Positions 162-7,894 of a stretch of DNA of 64,000 nt are shown one piece after another. Origin of the DNA: Bradyrhizobium sp. 1(2017) (GTDB lineage Bacteria; Pseudomonadota; Alphaproteobacteria; Rhizobiales; Xanthobacteraceae); NCBI RefSeq assembly GCF_011602485.2, contig NZ_CP050022.2:2686001-2750000 (forward strand), written 5' to 3'. The position numbers and the translations under genes are program-made. A model generated the notes under the pieces. That model was not told the DNA's origin. It saw only the letters and a list, made by a program, of their open reading frames with translations, and made no database searches. The number at the start of each line of letters is the position of its first letter. Position 1 is the first letter of the stretch.

Positions 162-3100
162 GTGTCGATCTACGTCGCATTACATCACGTCACGCACTAC
201 AAATACGACCGTCCGATCGACCTTGGCCCGCAGACCATCCGCCTGCGGCCGGCGCCGCATACGCGCACGCCGATCCTGAGCTATTCGCTCAAGGTCACCC
301 CATCCAATCACTTCGTGAACTGGCAGCAGGATCCGCAAGGCAACTGGCTCGCGCGCTATGTCTTTCCGGAGAAGACGACCGAGTTGAAGTTCGAGGTCGA
401 TTTCACGGCGCAGATGACGGTGGTCAATCCGTTCGACTTCTTCGTCGAGCCCTACGCCGACAGCTTTCCGTTCGAGTACCCGAAGGATCTGAAGACGGAG
501 CTCGCGCCCTATCTCGAGACCATCAAGCCCGATCGCCTGTTCGCGCAATATCTCGACACGATTCCGCAGGAAGCGCCGAACACCGTCAACTTCCTGGTCG
601 AGCTCAATCGCGAGCTGCAGCAGAAGATCCGCTACATCATCCGCATGGAGCCGGGCGTGCAGACGCCGGAGGAGACGCTCGCCTCCGGCGCTGGCTCCTG
701 CCGCGACTCCGCCTGGCTCTTGATCCAGACGCTGCGTCACCTCGGTCTCGCGGCGCGCTTCGTCTCGGGTTACCTCGTCCAGATCCGTCCCGACATCGAT
801 CCGATCGAGGGACCGCCGGAGGTGGAGAGCGACTTCACCGATCTGCACGCCTGGGCCGAGGTCTATCTGCCGGGCGCAGGGTGGATCGGGTTCGATGCGA
901 CCTCCGGCATGCTCGCGGGCGAGGGACACATCCCGGTCGCGGCAACGCCGCATTATCGTTCCGCGGCGCCGATTTCCGGCGGTGCCGGCTTTGCCGAGGT
1001 CGAGTTCGCCTTCGACATGAGCGTGAAGCGTATCCGCGAGGCGCCGCGCATCACGAGGCCGTTCTCCGACGAATCCTGGGCACGGCTCGACGATCTCGGC
1101 GAGCAGGTCGACGGCGATCTTGCTGCGCAGGATGTGCGGCTCACCATGGGCGGCGAGCCGACCTTCGTCTCGGTCGACGATCTCGAAGCCGGCGAGTGGA
1201 ATACGGAAGCGGTCGGTCCGACCAAGCGTGCGCTCGCTGACGATCTGATCCGCCGATTGCGCACGCGCTTCGCGCCCGGCGGTCTGCTGCATTACGGCCA
1301 GGGCAAATGGTATCCCGGCGAGAGCCTGCCGCGCTGGGCCTTTGGCCTGTACTGGCGCAAGGACGGCGTGCCGATATGGAAGAACGCTGACCTTATTGCC
1401 AAGATCGAGAACCCGCGGCGGCCCGAGGTCAAGGATGCCGAGGCGTTCATGGAAGGCACCGCGGCGCGGCTCGGCGTCGACCTCGGCTACATCATGCCGG
1501 CCTATGAGGATCCCGCCTATTGGCTTCAGAAGGAAGCCGAGCTCCCTGTCAACGTTGACCCCACCGACTCCAAATTATCCGATCCCGAGGCGCGGGTGCG
1601 CATGGCGAGGGTGTTCGACCAGGGCCTGAACACGCCGCGCGGCTTCGTGCTGCCGATCCAGCGCTGGAATGCGCCGCCGCGCTGGCGCAGCGAGCGCTGG
1701 CCGCTCCGTCGCAATCATCTGTTTCTGATGCCGGGCGATTCACCGCTCGGCCTGCGGCTGCCGATCGGCTCGCTCGGCTACGTGCCGCCCAATCAATATC
1801 CTTACATCATCGAGCAGGACCCGATGGAGGCGCGCGCCAAGCTGCCGGTGTTCACGCCGCCGGCGCGGCCGAAATCGCCGCCGCGGGAAGCGCCCGAGAA
1901 GCTCAACACGTCCGTCCCGGTCCGCACCGCGATGTCGATCGAAATCCGCGATGGTGTGATCTGCGCCTTCATGCCGCCGGTGGAGCGTATCGAGGATTAT
2001 CTCGAACTGGTCGCGGCGCTGGAAGCCACTGCCGAGGAGATGCAGCTCCAGGTCCATGTCGAGGGTTATCCGCCGCCGTTCGATCCGCGCATCGAGGTCA
2101 TCAAGGTGACGCCCGATCCCGGTGTGATCGAGATCAACATCCAGCCGGCGAAGAGCTGGCGCGAGGCGGTCGAGATCACGTCAGGGCTCTATGACGACGC
2201 AGCGAAGGTTCGGCTCGGCGCCAACCGCTTCCTGGTCGACGGTCGTCACACCGGCACCGGCGGCGGCAATCACGTCGTGGTCGGCGGCTCCTCGCCGCAG
2301 GATTCACCGTTCCTGCGCCGGCCCGATCTGCTGAAGAGCTTGGTCTTGTACTGGCAGCGGCATCCGTCGCTGTCCTACTTCTTCTCCGGCCTGTTCATCG
2401 GCCCGACCAGCCAGGCGCCGCGTATCGACGAGGCCCGGCACGACAGCATCTACGAACTCGAGATCGCGCTCTCGCACGTGCCGCCGCCGGGCTATCAGAC
2501 GCCGCTGTGGCTGGTCGACCGGCTGTTCCGGCATCTGCTCGTCGACATCACCGGCAACACCCATCGCGCCGAGATCTGCATCGACAAGCTCTATTCGCCG
2601 GAGGGGCCCACGGGGCGCCTCGGCCTCGTCGAATTCCGCGCGCTCGAGATGCCGCCCGATCCGCGCATGTCGCTGGCGCAGCAGCTCCTGATCCGCGCGC
2701 TGATCGCAAAATTCTGGCGCGAGCCGCAACACGGCAAGTTCGTGCGCTGGGGCACCGCGCTGCACGATCGCTTCATGCTGCCTCACTTCATCTGGCAGGA
2801 TTTTCTTGATGTGCTTTCTGAGTTGAAGCAGTCCGGCTATCCCTTTGAGCCGGAATGGTATCTGGCGCAGCTCGAATTCCGCTTCCCCGCCTTCGGCCGG
2901 GTCCATCATGGCGGCGTGACGCTGGAATTGCGCCAGGCGCTGGAGCCCTGGCACGTGCTGGGCGAGGAGGGCTCGGCCGGCGGCACCGTGCGCTATGTCG
3001 ATTCATCGGTCGAGCGGCTCCAGGTCAAGGCGGAGGGCTTCGTCGAGGGTCGCCACATCGTCACCTGCAACGGCCGCCGCCTGCCGATGACCACGACCGG

Positions 3101-3431
3101 CCGTTCGACTGAAGCGGTGGCCGGCGTCCGCTTCAAGGCGTGGCAGCCGGCCTCCGGCCTGCACCCGACCATCCCCGTCCACGCGCCCCTGACCTTCGAT
3201 CTCATCGATAGCTGGAACGGCCGCTCGCTAGGCGGCTGCGTCTATCACGTCGCCCATCCCGGCGGCCGCAACTACGACACCAAGCCGGTCAACACCTATG
3301 AGGCCGAGGCGCGGCGGCTGGCGCGCTTCCAGGACCACGGCCATACGCCGGGTCCGGTGCAGCCGCCGCCCGAGGAACGCACAAATGAGTTTCCGCTGAC
3401 CCTCGACTTGCGGACCTCGCTCCTGCAATGA
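162..3431 (+). CDS. Transglutaminase-like protein fused to DUF2126 putative amidoligase
   Basis: This is a large cytoplasmic two-domain protein of 1089 aa. The N-terminal ~290 residues are a bacterial transglutaminase/protease fold with its N-terminal lobe; the likely triad is Cys180 (GAGSCRDS), His229 (DLHAWAEV) and Asp245 (WIGFDAT). The remainder is DUF2126, annotated in Pfam as a putative amidoligase, and opens with the signature [12 protein letters not shown]. The GTG at 162 is preferred over the ATG at 105 because homology to the family begins at [15 protein letters not shown] and ctggag lies upstream. The gene starts an operon with the ATP-grasp/alpha-E gene 27 bases downstream and a second transglutaminase gene. 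The family was predicted by comparative genomics (Aravind and colleagues) to form or cleave amide bonds in peptides. The substrate is unknown. Confidence 0.9.
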
Positions 3432-3458
3432 GTATGATGGTGGGGCAGGGAGAGGCGC

Positions 3459-5984
3459 ATGGCCGAGGGCGCAGCCGAACAGGACGACAGGGCGGGGCAG
3501 GCGCAAGGCCAGCGTGAAGGCCGGCGCCGCCTGGCGCAATGGGTCCGCGACTATCGCCGCCTGCCCGGCATTCCCGACGAGTTCCTGGGGCCCGACGGCG
3601 CTCCGCGCGCGGTCTGGAGCCGCTTCTTCGATGCCTTCGGCGCGCTTGCACCCGACGAGGCCGAGCGGCGCTTTGCCATGGCGGACCGTCATCTCCGCGA
3701 GGCCGGCGTCACCTACCGCGCGCCCGGCGACAGCGCCGACCGGCCGTGGTCGCTCAGTCATCTGCCGCTTTTGATCGACGAGGCCGACTGGCGGCAACTC
3801 TCCGCCGGCATCACCCAGCGCGCCGAGCTGCTCGAGCTCGTGCTGCGCGACATCTATGGCGAGGGCCGTCTGGTCGCCGAAGGCGCGCTGCCGGCTGCGG
3901 CGATCGCCGGCAGCCCCGAATATCTCCGCCCCGTCTGCGGCGTGCCGCCGCCCGGGGGACGCTATCTGTCGATCTATGCCGCCGATGTCGGCCGCGGGCC
4001 CGACGGCCGCTGGTGGGTGCTCGGCGACCGCACCCAGGCTCCCTCGGGCGCGGGTTATGCGCTGGAGAACCGCCTGGTGCTCTCGCGCGCCTTCTCCGAT
4101 CTCTACAAGTCGATGAACGTGCCGCGCGTCGCGCCGTTCTTCGAGGCGTTCCGCGACAGTCTGCGCGCGCGGGCCGACCGCGACGAGCCGCGCATCGGCG
4201 TGCTCACCCCCGGCAGCTTCAGCGAGACCTATTTCGAGCATGCGACGCTGGCGCGCTATCTCGGCTTCCTCCTGGTCGAGGGCGACGATCTCGCCGTCAG
4301 CGACGGCCGGATCCACATCCGCACCGTCGCCGGCCTCAAGCGGCTCGACGTGCTGCTCCGCCGCGTCGATTCCAACTCGCTCGATCCGCTCGAGCTCGAT
4401 GCCTCCTCGCGGCTCGGCGTGCCCGGCCTGATCGACGTGCTGCGCAAGGACGGCGTCGTCGTCGCCAACATGCCGGGCTCGGGCGTGCCGGAGGCGCGGG
4501 CGCTGCTCGGCTTCCTGCCGGCGCTCAGCCGCCGCCTGCTCGGCGAGGAGCTGAAGATGCCGCACATCGCGACCTGGTGGTGCGGCCAGCGCGCGGCCCG
4601 CGACGAAGTGCTGGCGCGGCTCGACGAGGTCGCGATCGAAGGCGCCTACCGGCGCGGCGTGCCCGGCTTCGACAGCAACGGTCCGGTGCTCGCGAGCGAG
4701 CTCGACGCAAGCGACCGCCAGCGCCTGGTCGAGGCCATCACCACGCGCGGCATGGACTATGTCGGCCAGGAGGTGGTGCGGCTCTCGACCATGCCGGTGT
4801 GGGAGCAGGGCCAGCTCACGCCGCGCCCCTTCGTGCTGCGCGTATTCGCAGCCGCCACGCCCGACGGCTGGGCCATCATGCCCGGCGGCTTCTGCCGGAT
4901 CGCCGAGCAGGCCGATGCACGCGCGGTGTCGATGGGCGACGGCGCCCGTGCCGCCGACGTCTGGGTGGTCTCGGACAAGCAGGTCTCGACGGCGACGCTG
5001 CTGCCGGCGACCGACAAGGTGCGCATCCGCCGCATCGCCGGCGTGCTGCCGAGTCGCGCCGCCGACAATTTGTTCTGGCTCGGCCGCTATCTCGAACGCG
5101 CCGAGGCGACGCTGCGGCTGGTGCGCGCGCTGGGCTCCCCGAGCGGGCCCAACAAGGGCACCGCCGCTTCGCTGCAAGCGGTCGAACGAATCCAGCGCCT
5201 TTTGGTCGCCTGGGGCGCGATCTCGCAGACGTCGCGCACGGGGCCTGGCCGCATCGTTGCCGAAGCCTTGCAGAGTCCCGAGCGTTTCGGCTCGGCACTG
5301 TCGCTGGTACGCGCGGCCCAGCGCACCGCGACCTCGTTGCGCGAGCGCCTGTCACCCGATGCCTGGCAGGTGATCACCGAAATGGCCGAGCGTCTCGCCT
5401 ACGAGGTCGAGGACGACGACAGCGTGGTCAGCGCGGCCGAGCTGACCTTGCAGGAGCTGGCGAGCTTCGCGGGGCTTGCGCAGGAGAACATGAACCGCGC
5501 CGCCGGCTGGCGCTTTCTCGATATCGGCCGCCGCATCGAGCGCGCCATCAACACCACGCGCTTCACGCGCCAATTCGCCTATGACGAGGCCGGCGACGAG
5601 GATCTCGACATCCTGCTGACCCTGGTCGATTGCCAGATCACCTATCGCTCGCGCTATCTGCTGGCGCCGATCCTGGCGCCGGTGCGCGACCTCGCCGTGC
5701 TCGACGGCTATAATCCGCGTTCGGTGGCATTCCAGGTGACGACGCTGAACGAGCACGTCGCCGCCCTGCCGAGCCTGAAGGAGCACGGCCTGATCGAGAA
5801 GCCGCAGCGGCTTGCCGTGGCGATGCAGGCGATGCTTGCAACGGCGGAGGCCGAGAAGCTCGAGATCAAGATTCTGTTCGCGCTGGAGCAGGATCTGCTC
5901 AGCCTCGCCGAGGCGATCGGGCAGCACTATTTCCCGCACGGCCCCAATGCCAGCCGGCCGGAAAAGCTGACGGGGCTGGCGTGA
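3459..5984 (+). CDS. Circularly permuted ATP-grasp / alpha-E fusion protein
   Basis: This 841-aa protein combines a circularly permuted ATP-grasp type 2 ligase (former DUF404/DUF407, residues ~80-520; signatures GRYLSIYAADVGRGPDG, RTQAPSGAGYALENR, LTPGSFSETYFEH) with a C-terminal alpha-E helical domain (former DUF403, from ~residue 528, LPSRAADNLFWLGRYLERAE). The ATP-grasp half should activate a carboxylate with ATP and form an amide or peptide bond. Alpha-E is an all-helical partner domain of unknown role. Start ATG 3459 has agggag upstream. The stop overlaps the GTG of the next gene, which suggests translational coupling. In many proteobacteria the two halves are separate genes; here they are fused. 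Confidence 0.9.
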   Translation: MAEGAAEQDDRAGQAQGQREGRRRLAQWVRDYRRLPGIPDEFLGPDGAPRAVWSRFFDAFGALAPDEAERRFAMADRHLREAGVTYRAPGDSADRPWSLSHLPLLIDEADWRQLSAGITQRAELLELVLRDIYGEGRLVAEGALPAAAIAGSPEYLRPVCGVPPPGGRYLSIYAADVGRGPDGRWWVLGDRTQAPSGAGYALENRLVLSRAFSDLYKSMNVPRVAPFFEAFRDSLRARADRDEPRIGVLTPGSFSETYFEHATLARYLGFLLVEGDDLAVSDGRIHIRTVAGLKRLDVLLRRVDSNSLDPLELDASSRLGVPGLIDVLRKDGVVVANMPGSGVPEARALLGFLPALSRRLLGEELKMPHIATWWCGQRAARDEVLARLDEVAIEGAYRRGVPGFDSNGPVLASELDASDRQRLVEAITTRGMDYVGQEVVRLSTMPVWEQGQLTPRPFVLRVFAAATPDGWAIMPGGFCRIAEQADARAVSMGDGARAADVWVVSDKQVSTATLLPATDKVRIRRIAGVLPSRAADNLFWLGRYLERAEATLRLVRALGSPSGPNKGTAASLQAVERIQRLLVAWGAISQTSRTGPGRIVAEALQSPERFGSALSLVRAAQRTATSLRERLSPDAWQVITEMAERLAYEVEDDDSVVSAAELTLQELASFAGLAQENMNRAAGWRFLDIGRRIERAINTTRFTRQFAYDEAGDEDLDILLTLVDCQITYRSRYLLAPILAPVRDLAVLDGYNPRSVAFQVTTLNEHVAALPSLKEHGLIEKPQRLAVAMQAMLATAEAEKLEIKILFALEQDLLSLAEAIGQHYFPHGPNASRPEKLTGLA

Positions 5985-6859
5985 TCTACGACATCCGTCA
6001 CGTCACGACCTACGAATATGAAAGTCCGGTCAGCTTCGCCCGCTGCACGCTGCGGCTTGAGCCGCGAAGCGGCAACGGCCAGGAACTGATCTCGCGCCGT
6101 GTCGAGATCCGGCCGCGTCCAACCGAGCGCCACGTCCGCCGCGATTTCTTCGGCACGCTCACCGAGAGCGTGGTGATCGAAGCTGCGCATCGCAACTTAC
6201 GGATCGATTCACGCTCGCGTGTATCCGTCTTGCGACAGCCGCCGGCACGTGATGCCTCGAGCCCGCCCTGGGAGAGCATTCGCGACATTGCCTTCGAGGC
6301 CACGAGCCTCGGGCCATCCTCGCCGGTCGGCTACGTCTTTGCGAGCCCGCTGGTGCCGGTGCTGCATCCGGTCAGCGCCTATGCGGCTTTGAGCTTTGCG
6401 CCCGGTGCGGGCATCCTCGCCTGCGCCGTCGATCTCATGCGTCGCATCCGTAGCGAATTTCGCTACGATCCCAAGGCGACGGCGATCTCGACGCCGCTCG
6501 GCGAGGTCTTCGACAAGCGTCACGGCGTCTGCCAGGACTTTGCCCATGTGATGATCGCAGGGCTGCGCGGGCTTGGCCTGCCCGCGGCCTATGTCAGCGG
6601 ATATCTGCGCACCATTCCGCCGCCGGGCCAGGCACGGCTGCAAGGCGCCGACGCCACCCATGCCTGGGTCTCGCTGTGGTGCGGGGCGGAGCTCGGCTGG
6701 ATCGATTTCGATCCCACCAACGATCTCCTGGTCGCGGGCGACCACATCGTGCTCGCTGTGGGGCGTGATTTTTCCGACGTCTCGCCGGTCGACGGCATCA
6801 TCGTCGGCTCGCCGAAACAGAAGCTCGGTGTCGCCGTCGACGTGGTGCTGGTGGAATAG
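5981..6859 (+). CDS. Transglutaminase-like cysteine peptidase family protein
   Basis: This 292-aa protein has the bacterial transglutaminase-like N-terminal domain (MIYDIRHVTTYEYESPV, residues 1-80) and a transglutaminase core. The predicted triad is Cys184 (HGVCQDFAH), His227 (DATHAWVSLW) and Asp244 (WIDFDPTN). No signal peptide is visible. The GTG start at 5981 overlaps the preceding stop by four bases (GTGA). It is the third gene of the amidoligase operon. By family knowledge it probably cleaves or transfers the amide bonds handled by the ligases. A role in peptide maturation or turnover is inferred only from context. Confidence 0.9.
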   Translation: MIYDIRHVTTYEYESPVSFARCTLRLEPRSGNGQELISRRVEIRPRPTERHVRRDFFGTLTESVVIEAAHRNLRIDSRSRVSVLRQPPARDASSPPWESIRDIAFEATSLGPSSPVGYVFASPLVPVLHPVSAYAALSFAPGAGILACAVDLMRRIRSEFRYDPKATAISTPLGEVFDKRHGVCQDFAHVMIAGLRGLGLPAAYVSGYLRTIPPPGQARLQGADATHAWVSLWCGAELGWIDFDPTNDLLVAGDHIVLAVGRDFSDVSPVDGIIVGSPKQKLGVAVDVVLVE

Positions 6860-7066: not shown

Positions 7067-7894
7067 ATGATGACGTTACCGAGGCTGGCGGCCGAATCCC
7101 TCGAGAAGTTGCTCGGTACGTTCATGCGTCGCCGGTACGACGAGACCTCCGCAAGCATCGTCGAGAGCGCGACCCGGACCGCGATGGAATGCATCGGCAA
7201 CAGCGATGCGCTCTATCACAACATCGAGCATACGATGCTGGTGACGCTGGCCGGTCATTCCATCCTCAGCGGCCGCAGTCTTCACACGCATCTGTCGGCT
7301 GCGGATTACGTCCATGTCCTGATCGCCTGCCTCGCCCACGATATCGGTTATGTGCGCGGCCTGTTCGAGGAGGACGACGTTGACGGCTTCGTGATCGATG
7401 CAACCGACACCAAGATCTCGCTGCCGCGCGGCGCGTCGGATGCGAGCCTGATGATGTATCACGTCGACCGGTCCAAGCTCTATGTGACGCGGCGGCTCCG
7501 CCATATCCCGGGCCTCGATCCGGAGCGTATTGCCCGCGCCATCGAGGGCACGCGGTTTCCGGCCCGCGAAGGCCAAGACTATGACGACGAGGCCTCGATT
7601 CTGCGCGCCGCCGATTTCATCGGCCAGCTCGGCGATCCCAACTATCTGCGCAAGGCCAATGCGCTCTATTACGAGTTCGAGGAGGTCGGCATCAACCGCC
7701 AGCTCGGCTACGACTCGCCCGCCGACATCGTGAACCGCTATCCACAATTCTACTGGAACAGCGTCGCACCGCACATCCAGACCGAGATCGGCTACCTCAA
7801 CAAGACGGAGATCGGCCGGCAGTGGATCGCCAACCTCTACAGCAACGTGTTCCGCGCCGAACGCGACATCGCGCTGTCCGGTCCGCAGAGATAA
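7067..7894 (+). CDS. HD-domain metal-dependent phosphohydrolase family protein
   Basis: This 275-aa soluble protein has the HD-superfamily metal-site pattern: His51 and His55 (YHNIEHTM), then His91-Asp92 (LAHDIGY), with a later Asp in LRAADFIGQLGDPNY. Such proteins hydrolyse phosphoesters, often of cyclic nucleotides or nucleotides, but the motif set does not identify the substrate. The start is one of two tandem ATGs at 7067/7070, with no strong ribosome site. The gene stands alone. A weak sigma-70-like TTGGCC/TATGCT pair with an 18-base spacer lies in the 207-base upstream gap. A palindromic repeat follows the stop. Confidence 0.75.
   Translation: MMTLPRLAAESLEKLLGTFMRRRYDETSASIVESATRTAMECIGNSDALYHNIEHTMLVTLAGHSILSGRSLHTHLSAADYVHVLIACLAHDIGYVRGLFEEDDVDGFVIDATDTKISLPRGASDASLMMYHVDRSKLYVTRRLRHIPGLDPERIARAIEGTRFPAREGQDYDDEASILRAADFIGQLGDPNYLRKANALYYEFEEVGINRQLGYDSPADIVNRYPQFYWNSVAPHIQTEIGYLNKTEIGRQWIANLYSNVFRAERDIALSGPQR

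Follow-up and report, generated by a model that had tools for sequence, protein, structure and literature searches.

We propose, with moderate confidence, that a three-gene cluster of Bradyrhizobium sp. 1(2017) is the DUF2126 module of an amidoligase system. In this system, gene 1 would be a synthetase-amidase combining DUF2126 with a transglutaminase-like (TG) domain, gene 2 would be its non-catalytic partner, and the module would depend on a separate, intact core. The cluster spans positions 162-6859 of the window, the 64,000-nucleotide stretch that was analyzed (positions 2,686,001-2,750,000 of the 7.86 Mb single-contig genome). A first-pass annotation of the window had described a tightly spaced, partly overlapping three-gene cluster here. 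Its coordinates were right and its domains were confirmed by Pfam; the gap between genes 1 and 2 is 27 bp, and genes 2 and 3 overlap by 4 bp. The domains, the Cys-His-Asp triads, the loss of the ATP-grasp site and the co-occurrence with the intact type of ATP-grasp were computed. The three genes are as follows.

162..3431, + strand: gene 1, TG-fold (papain-like) domain plus DUF2126 putative amidoligase (glutamine-synthetase fold), 1089 amino acids (aa), GTG start
3459..5984, + strand: gene 2 (841 aa), a fusion of circularly permuted ATP-grasp with Alpha-E
5981..6859, + strand: gene 3, stand-alone TG-fold protein, 292 aa, with Bact_transglu_N and Transglut_core (Pfam, far above cut-off)

The trio was compared with the best 80 of at least 566 confirmed related loci from species genomes, almost all from Alphaproteobacteria. 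Among the best 120 protein relatives listed, the named ones were from Bradyrhizobium. The gene order 1-2-3, with the two partners downstream of DUF2126, was matched in 73 of the 80 loci. Because all three genes recurred in this way, the order is not chance. Four of the remaining seven loci stop at a contig edge, and three lack the partners (L044, L045, and L069). Two of the 73 full matches have an interrupted gene 2 frame (L015 and L080), and 33 share the identical 4-bp overlap between genes 2 and 3.

Gene 1 carries Bact_transglu_N (PF08379), Transglut_core (PF01841) and DUF2126 (PF09899) on one chain, all far above cut-off, with 1337.6 bits for DUF2126. Models gave it a papain/TG fold and a glutamine-synthetase (carboxylate-amine ligase) fold. 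An N-terminal TG-fold domain fused to PF09899 with a glutamine-synthetase-like fold is what defines the DUF2126/TG amidoligase family, and the fusion of ligase and peptidase-like domains in gene 1, already noted in the first-pass annotation, is real. Its functional regions are listed below.

567..899, + strand: Transglut_core of gene 1; triad codons C180 (699-701), H229 (846-848), and D245 (894-896)
993..3413, + strand: DUF2126 domain, with polar residues conserved in 125 aligned rows

The triad C180/H229/D245 was invariant across a 63-sequence alignment. In the DUF2126 domain, E332, K355, K382, E387, E657, N659, H704, H801, R802, E804, D808, K809, E824, and R826 were each kept in at least 98.5% of the 125 rows, and all 14 were present even in the most divergent row, L147. 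Such conservation is as expected of an active enzyme, judged from the sequences. The L147 relative (L147:6721-9712) shares 33% identity, and no ATP-grasp, Alpha-E or stand-alone TG match was found in the 17 kb around it.

Gene 2 matched CP_ATPgrasp_1 (292.6 bits), CP_ATPgrasp_2 (465.9 bits), and Alpha-E (228.2 bits). Models gave it a glutathione-synthetase-like ATP-grasp fold, so the overall ATP-grasp fold is present. Its fold matches include 2io7 and 2vob, from the glutathionylspermidine synthetase/amidase and trypanothione synthetase group. Its residues were read against the solved structure 3n6x and the ATP-grasp of the Anbu operon in the same genome. The canonical ATP/Mg residues are replaced, and we call this degenerate form the D-type.

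3765..4904, + strand: CP_ATPgrasp domain, D-type, canonical ATP/Mg residues replaced
4023-4025, + strand: G189, in place of the Glu of the LEDN motif
4029-4031, + strand: R191, in place of the Asn of the LEDN motif
4638-4640, + strand: E394, in place of Lys; the Gly-rich loop, up to about 4679, is not preserved
4929-4931, + strand: S491, in place of the Asn of VNSSQGGG
4953-4955, + strand: A499, in place of the Lys that follows the VNSSQGGG Asn
5046..5933, + strand: Alpha-E domain, ER motifs with E546 nearly invariant and E694 invariant

At the metal site gene 2 reads vlgdrtqaps where 3n6x reads vlednlrtps. At the Lys/Gly loop the sequences are aiegayrrgvpgf and vvkevqgsggygm, respectively, and around the second Asn they are vsmgdgaraadvw and vnssqgggtkdtw. 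We then compared 129 ATP-grasp copies, some from the same genome or from close relatives, typed by the better-matching of two seeds. The Glu-Asn pair was kept in none of the 113 D-type copies, versus all 16 intact (Anbu-operon-type) copies. In the D-type, Asn had become Arg in 111 copies, Glu was retained in 2, Lys stood in its column in 7 copies, and Asn at the second Asn position in 2; no copy had Lys together with all three glycines. All 16 intact copies had Glu, Asn, Lys, the three glycines and the second Asn, with the last Lys being Gln in one. In a later, overlapping set, all three motifs were present in 36 of 36 intact-type copies.

Gene 2 lacks the Glu-x-Asn site and the Lys with its Gly-rich loop by which active circularly permuted ATP-grasp ligases of the 3n6x/Anbu-operon type are recognized. 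Because no D-type copy keeps the Glu-Asn pair, gene 2 probably does not act as a second ligase. The claim that the cluster encodes two amide-bond-forming folds holds for the folds, and the ligase role once given to gene 2 probably does not stand. The 16 intact copies formed one clade (support 1.0). In larger trees, labeled by best-matching seed, the two types separated with support 1.0 each for ATP-grasp (38 + 40 copies) and for Alpha-E (37 + 39), and the TG proteins split nearly by type (0.61 for the gene 3 group). The simplest reading is that the D-type came from a duplicated cassette whose ATP-grasp site was lost while the gene was retained.

An intact core is present in the same genome at C1:5208498-5214545, 2.5 Mb from the trio. 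It encodes ATP-grasp (C1:5208498-5209913), Alpha-E, TG and Anbu, with two other ORFs separating TG from Anbu. The Anbu gene was confirmed against solved Anbu sequences and is the only Anbu match in the genome (C1:5213745); the trio cluster itself contains none. Co-occurrence was counted in one even set of 299 Pseudomonadota genomes. DUF2126 was present in 84 of them (42 genera), and the intact ATP-grasp query matched 156. All 84 DUF2126 genomes matched the intact-type ATP-grasp, with best E values of 4.9e-141 or lower, whereas a cross-type match reaches only about 1e-75; by score, these are therefore intact-type proteins. Motifs were read in the fetched copies, and the others were typed by score. 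Seven genomes without listed positions (G006, G030, G057, G061, G093, G105, and G177) had genome-level E values of 6.3e-150 to 4.9e-141. For 32 of the 77 genomes with listed positions, the distance from an intact ATP-grasp to DUF2126 was 15 kb or less.

The content of the core was read from 15 stretches around the intact ATP-grasp in DUF2126 genomes lacking Anbu. Intact ATP-grasp was found in 15 of 15, intact-type Alpha-E in 14, and intact-type TG in 8. Therefore, the core is intact ATP-grasp plus Alpha-E, which is joined to a varying extent by TG, Anbu and DUF2126. A Pseudooceanicola locus (L052:4657-15793) has an Anbu quartet head-to-head with a full DUF2126 trio, so that intact and degenerate ATP-grasps stand in one locus. 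In a Caballeronia locus (L008), the DUF2126 gene adjoins intact ATP-grasp and Alpha-E. Two D-type ATP-grasp-like fragments without an annotated coding sequence follow this intact DUF2126 gene (L008:12570-13281), and they look like a decayed D module, that is, a degenerate ATP-grasp-Alpha-E with TG.

The triad of gene 3 is given below.

6530-6532, 6659-6661 and 6710-6712, + strand: C184, H227 and D244 of gene 3, the papain-fold Cys-His-Asp triad

In an alignment of 75 sequences (73 loci, the window, and the Anbu-operon TG of the same genome), C and H were present in all 75 and D in 74, with one gap. Both TG triads, reported as intact before, are thus present and conserved. Rv2569c is one of the TG-fold proteins in the M. 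tuberculosis cluster. It was called a serine protease on inhibitor evidence in the accessible part of one report (PMC11081392), which contrasts with the family Cys, invariant in the gene-3-like sequences aligned.

We infer the reactions, the dependence itself, the role of the partner and the kind of product. DUF2126 of gene 1 would activate a carboxylate with ATP and join it to an amine, and the fused papain-fold domain would cut or transfer the amide formed. Gene 2 would serve as a non-catalytic partner, as scaffold, substrate binder or regulator, and gene 3 may be a second amidase/transpeptidase of the papain fold. The module would depend on the separate intact core of ATP-grasp and Alpha-E, often with TG and sometimes with Anbu, and the product would be a small amide or peptide conjugate. 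Glutathionylspermidine synthetase/amidase combines a ligase with a papain-fold domain on a single chain, and gene 1 would most likely work like it. The likeness is a functional analogy: in that enzyme and in trypanothione synthetase/amidase the ligase is an ATP-grasp, whereas gene 1 has the glutamine-synthetase fold and no ATP-grasp in the amidase chain. The interpretation in the first-pass annotation, a make-and-trim cycle, is supported in part, with the role of gene 2 corrected. That annotation had named loss of ATP-binding or triad residues across homologues as grounds to abandon it; the ATP-binding residues were lost in the D-type gene 2 and the triads were kept.

Anbu and a zinc peptidase, Peptidase_Mx, recur around these genes. 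Anbu was present in 102 of the 299 genomes, of which 101 matched intact ATP-grasp (exception G094). It was found in 51 of the 84 DUF2126 genomes versus 28.7 expected (Fisher p 2.9e-9, kinship uncorrected). In 16 genomes Anbu lay within 15 kb of DUF2126; 15 of these had it on the same strand and no more than 1 kb from the match, and in G170 the distance was 7.3 kb. Peptidase_Mx was found in 46 genomes, three by partial or broken matches only (G200, G217, and G287), and 44 of the 46 (41 of 43 minus the partial ones) had DUF2126 or Anbu. It was near DUF2126 in 9 genomes, and in 3 it directly adjoined Anbu, with match edges 24-57 bp apart. In the Bradyrhizobium genome, Peptidase_Mx matches lie away from both cassettes; a third is partial, and two are full-length.

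L148:6921-7976, - strand: Peptidase_Mx (PF15887 + PF10005), full-length
L149:6569-7540, + strand: Peptidase_Mx (PF15887 + PF10005), full-length

Relatives have been linked to nitrogen in the accessible parts of three papers. In B. cenocepacia, I35_5080-5083 (DUF404/407, DUF403, TG, and large TG) changed by -6.0 to -9.4 in an ntrC mutant (PMC5491218). In P. putida, PP_2685 and PP_2688 were up on nitrate versus ammonium (PMC8050072). In marine metagenomes, an association with urea domains was described (PMC3597751). By analogy with these relatives, the trio may be linked to nitrogen limitation. A bolder proposal, which we consider rather unlikely, is that degenerate and intact ATP-grasp-Alpha-E form an obligate active/pseudo pair. 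Such a pair would couple ATP-grasp and glutamine-synthetase-fold chemistries into one assembly line for an amide or peptide in nitrogen stress, with Anbu, the papain-fold proteins and Peptidase_Mx as alternative trimmers.

Several points weigh against a non-catalytic gene 2 tied to DUF2126 and to an intact core. The co-occurrence counts were made without phylogenetic correction. D modules without DUF2126 occur in eight genomes (L196-L203), all of which also match intact-type ATP-grasp; two other cases are less clean (G126, with an intact copy adjacent, and G114, ambiguous). Conversely, L136-L138 have DUF2126 and Anbu with only intact-type ATP-grasp nearby. Gene 2 and DUF2126 are therefore not strictly tied. 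The Burkholderia nitrogen cluster has separate ATP-grasp and Alpha-E genes, like the intact core, and therefore gives no support for gene 2. As the Caballeronia DUF2126 stands beside intact ATP-grasp and Alpha-E with D-type fragments only, the nitrogen evidence bears on DUF2126 and the core rather than on gene 2. Allowing up to 1 mismatch, we found no sigma54-like site in 19 kb surrounding the trio. Enrichment was small in 82 upstream regions of relatives: 3 sites had 2 mismatches or fewer, compared with about 1 expected and 1 counted on the opposite strand. For gene 1, Foldseek alone ranked glutamine synthetase at an E value of only 0.09. Finally, losing the canonical site does not prove that gene 2 is inactive. 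The residues that replace it are themselves conserved (R in 111 and Q in 103 of the 113 D-type copies), which also fits changed chemistry.

This last point leads to an alternative that we consider unlikely, in which the R/Q pocket of the D-type (R191/Q193) binds another ligand or performs ATP-independent acyl transfer. The persistence of the two-gene D module in the eight genomes without DUF2126 speaks for it as well, but conservation of the replacing residues would be equally expected of a structural pseudoenzyme. It is very unlikely that the trio's two ligase folds are both active and make a peptide that the TG proteins trim. Both folds are present and gene 2 is matched as regularly as the rest of the trio, but the Glu-Asn pair and the Lys with its Gly loop are each missing in every D-type copy, and the direct comparison with 3n6x points the same way.

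Two further alternatives depend on the genes around the trio. Flanks of 84 loci (the 80 plus L005-L008), grouped into 24 clades by DUF2126 identity, were compared using ORFs of at least 25 aa. Among the 32 flank families listed, the only widely shared one-strand family was Peptidase_Mx with antisense shadow ORFs (9 members, 5 clades, mostly upstream); another one-strand family had only three members. Some short ORFs recurred in 4-5 clades on both strands and in varied places, and ABC-transporter genes recurred in 8 of the 24 clades on both strands at varied distance. No small ORF of constant strand and place was found in these first 32 families (blastp E 1e-4), although very short or divergent tags could escape. 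Within these limits, the result weakens the idea of a tag. Protein tagging, with the ligases adding a tag that Anbu or the zinc peptidase degrades or strips off, is suggested by the nearness of Anbu and Peptidase_Mx to DUF2126 and is proposed in the accessible parts of papers citing Iyer 2009 (PMC6376114 and PMC5666114). We consider it decidedly unlikely, as 33 of the 84 DUF2126 genomes lack an Anbu match, no small ORF is constantly placed in the families listed, and Anbu peptidase activity was not found in the work described in the available text of PMC6376114. A lineage-particular small-molecule pathway, a biosynthetic cluster with variable tailoring, seems highly improbable. Flanking genes do vary by lineage, but none of tailoring or export is constantly placed in the families listed, the ABC-transporter genes are scattered, and the three trio genes are constant across loci.

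With gene 1 as the likely ligase and gene 2 as its probable non-catalytic partner, the trio belongs to an amidoligase kind that has already been described. In the text accessible to us, the TG-fold plus carboxylate-amine ligase architecture was published in 2008 (Rv2566; PMC2588565), and the proposal of peptide synthesis is credited to Iyer 2009 by citing papers (PMC5666114 and PMC6376114). The Iyer 2008 family and the Iyer 2009 operons, as far as described there, have the same domain architecture and partner genes of the same kinds; no Pup-like ORF was found near the trio. What differs here is that the ATP-grasp alongside DUF2126 is degenerate and that the intact type co-occurs in every DUF2126 genome of the sample. 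The degeneration is a further trait of this family, perhaps not reported before: the accessible literature on the family, including that on inactive ATP-grasps, gave no mention of it. As the first-pass annotation had said, the function was predicted in silico (2008-09) with no substrate; searches on DUF2126, amidoligase, and Alpha-E with TG and ATP-grasp found no product or substrate in the text available. More than a quarter of the sampled Pseudomonadota carry DUF2126. Knowing which ligase is probably catalytic, and that the module accompanies an intact core, makes a loose prediction specific enough to test by experiment.

The Anbu operon shares homologous ATP-grasp, Alpha-E and TG with the trio; this genome carries both cassettes, and in others they are adjacent. 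The trio differs in having DUF2126 and a fused degenerate ATP-grasp-Alpha-E and in lacking Anbu. An Anbu-operon ATP-grasp releases phosphate from ATP, according to the accessible part of PMC6376114. In the Pseudomonas rim/rlo systems (RimK-RimB; RloABC), as the available text of PMC12239564 describes them, an ATP-grasp ligase is likewise opposed by a peptidase, and rlo has a TG-like domain. Their peptidases are aspartic, their TG is an inactive membrane protein and their ATP-grasp is RimK-like, so the likeness is an analogy only.

A downstream HD gene and an upstream altronate dehydratase-like gene were limited to Bradyrhizobium and near kin among the compared loci; they are therefore neighbors, not parts of the trio. 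The HD-domain protein (7067-7894) has a sub-cut-off match to NF045583 Npun_R2479_HDIG (276 of 400 bits), and among the loci compared its gene adjoins the trio in Bradyrhizobium only.

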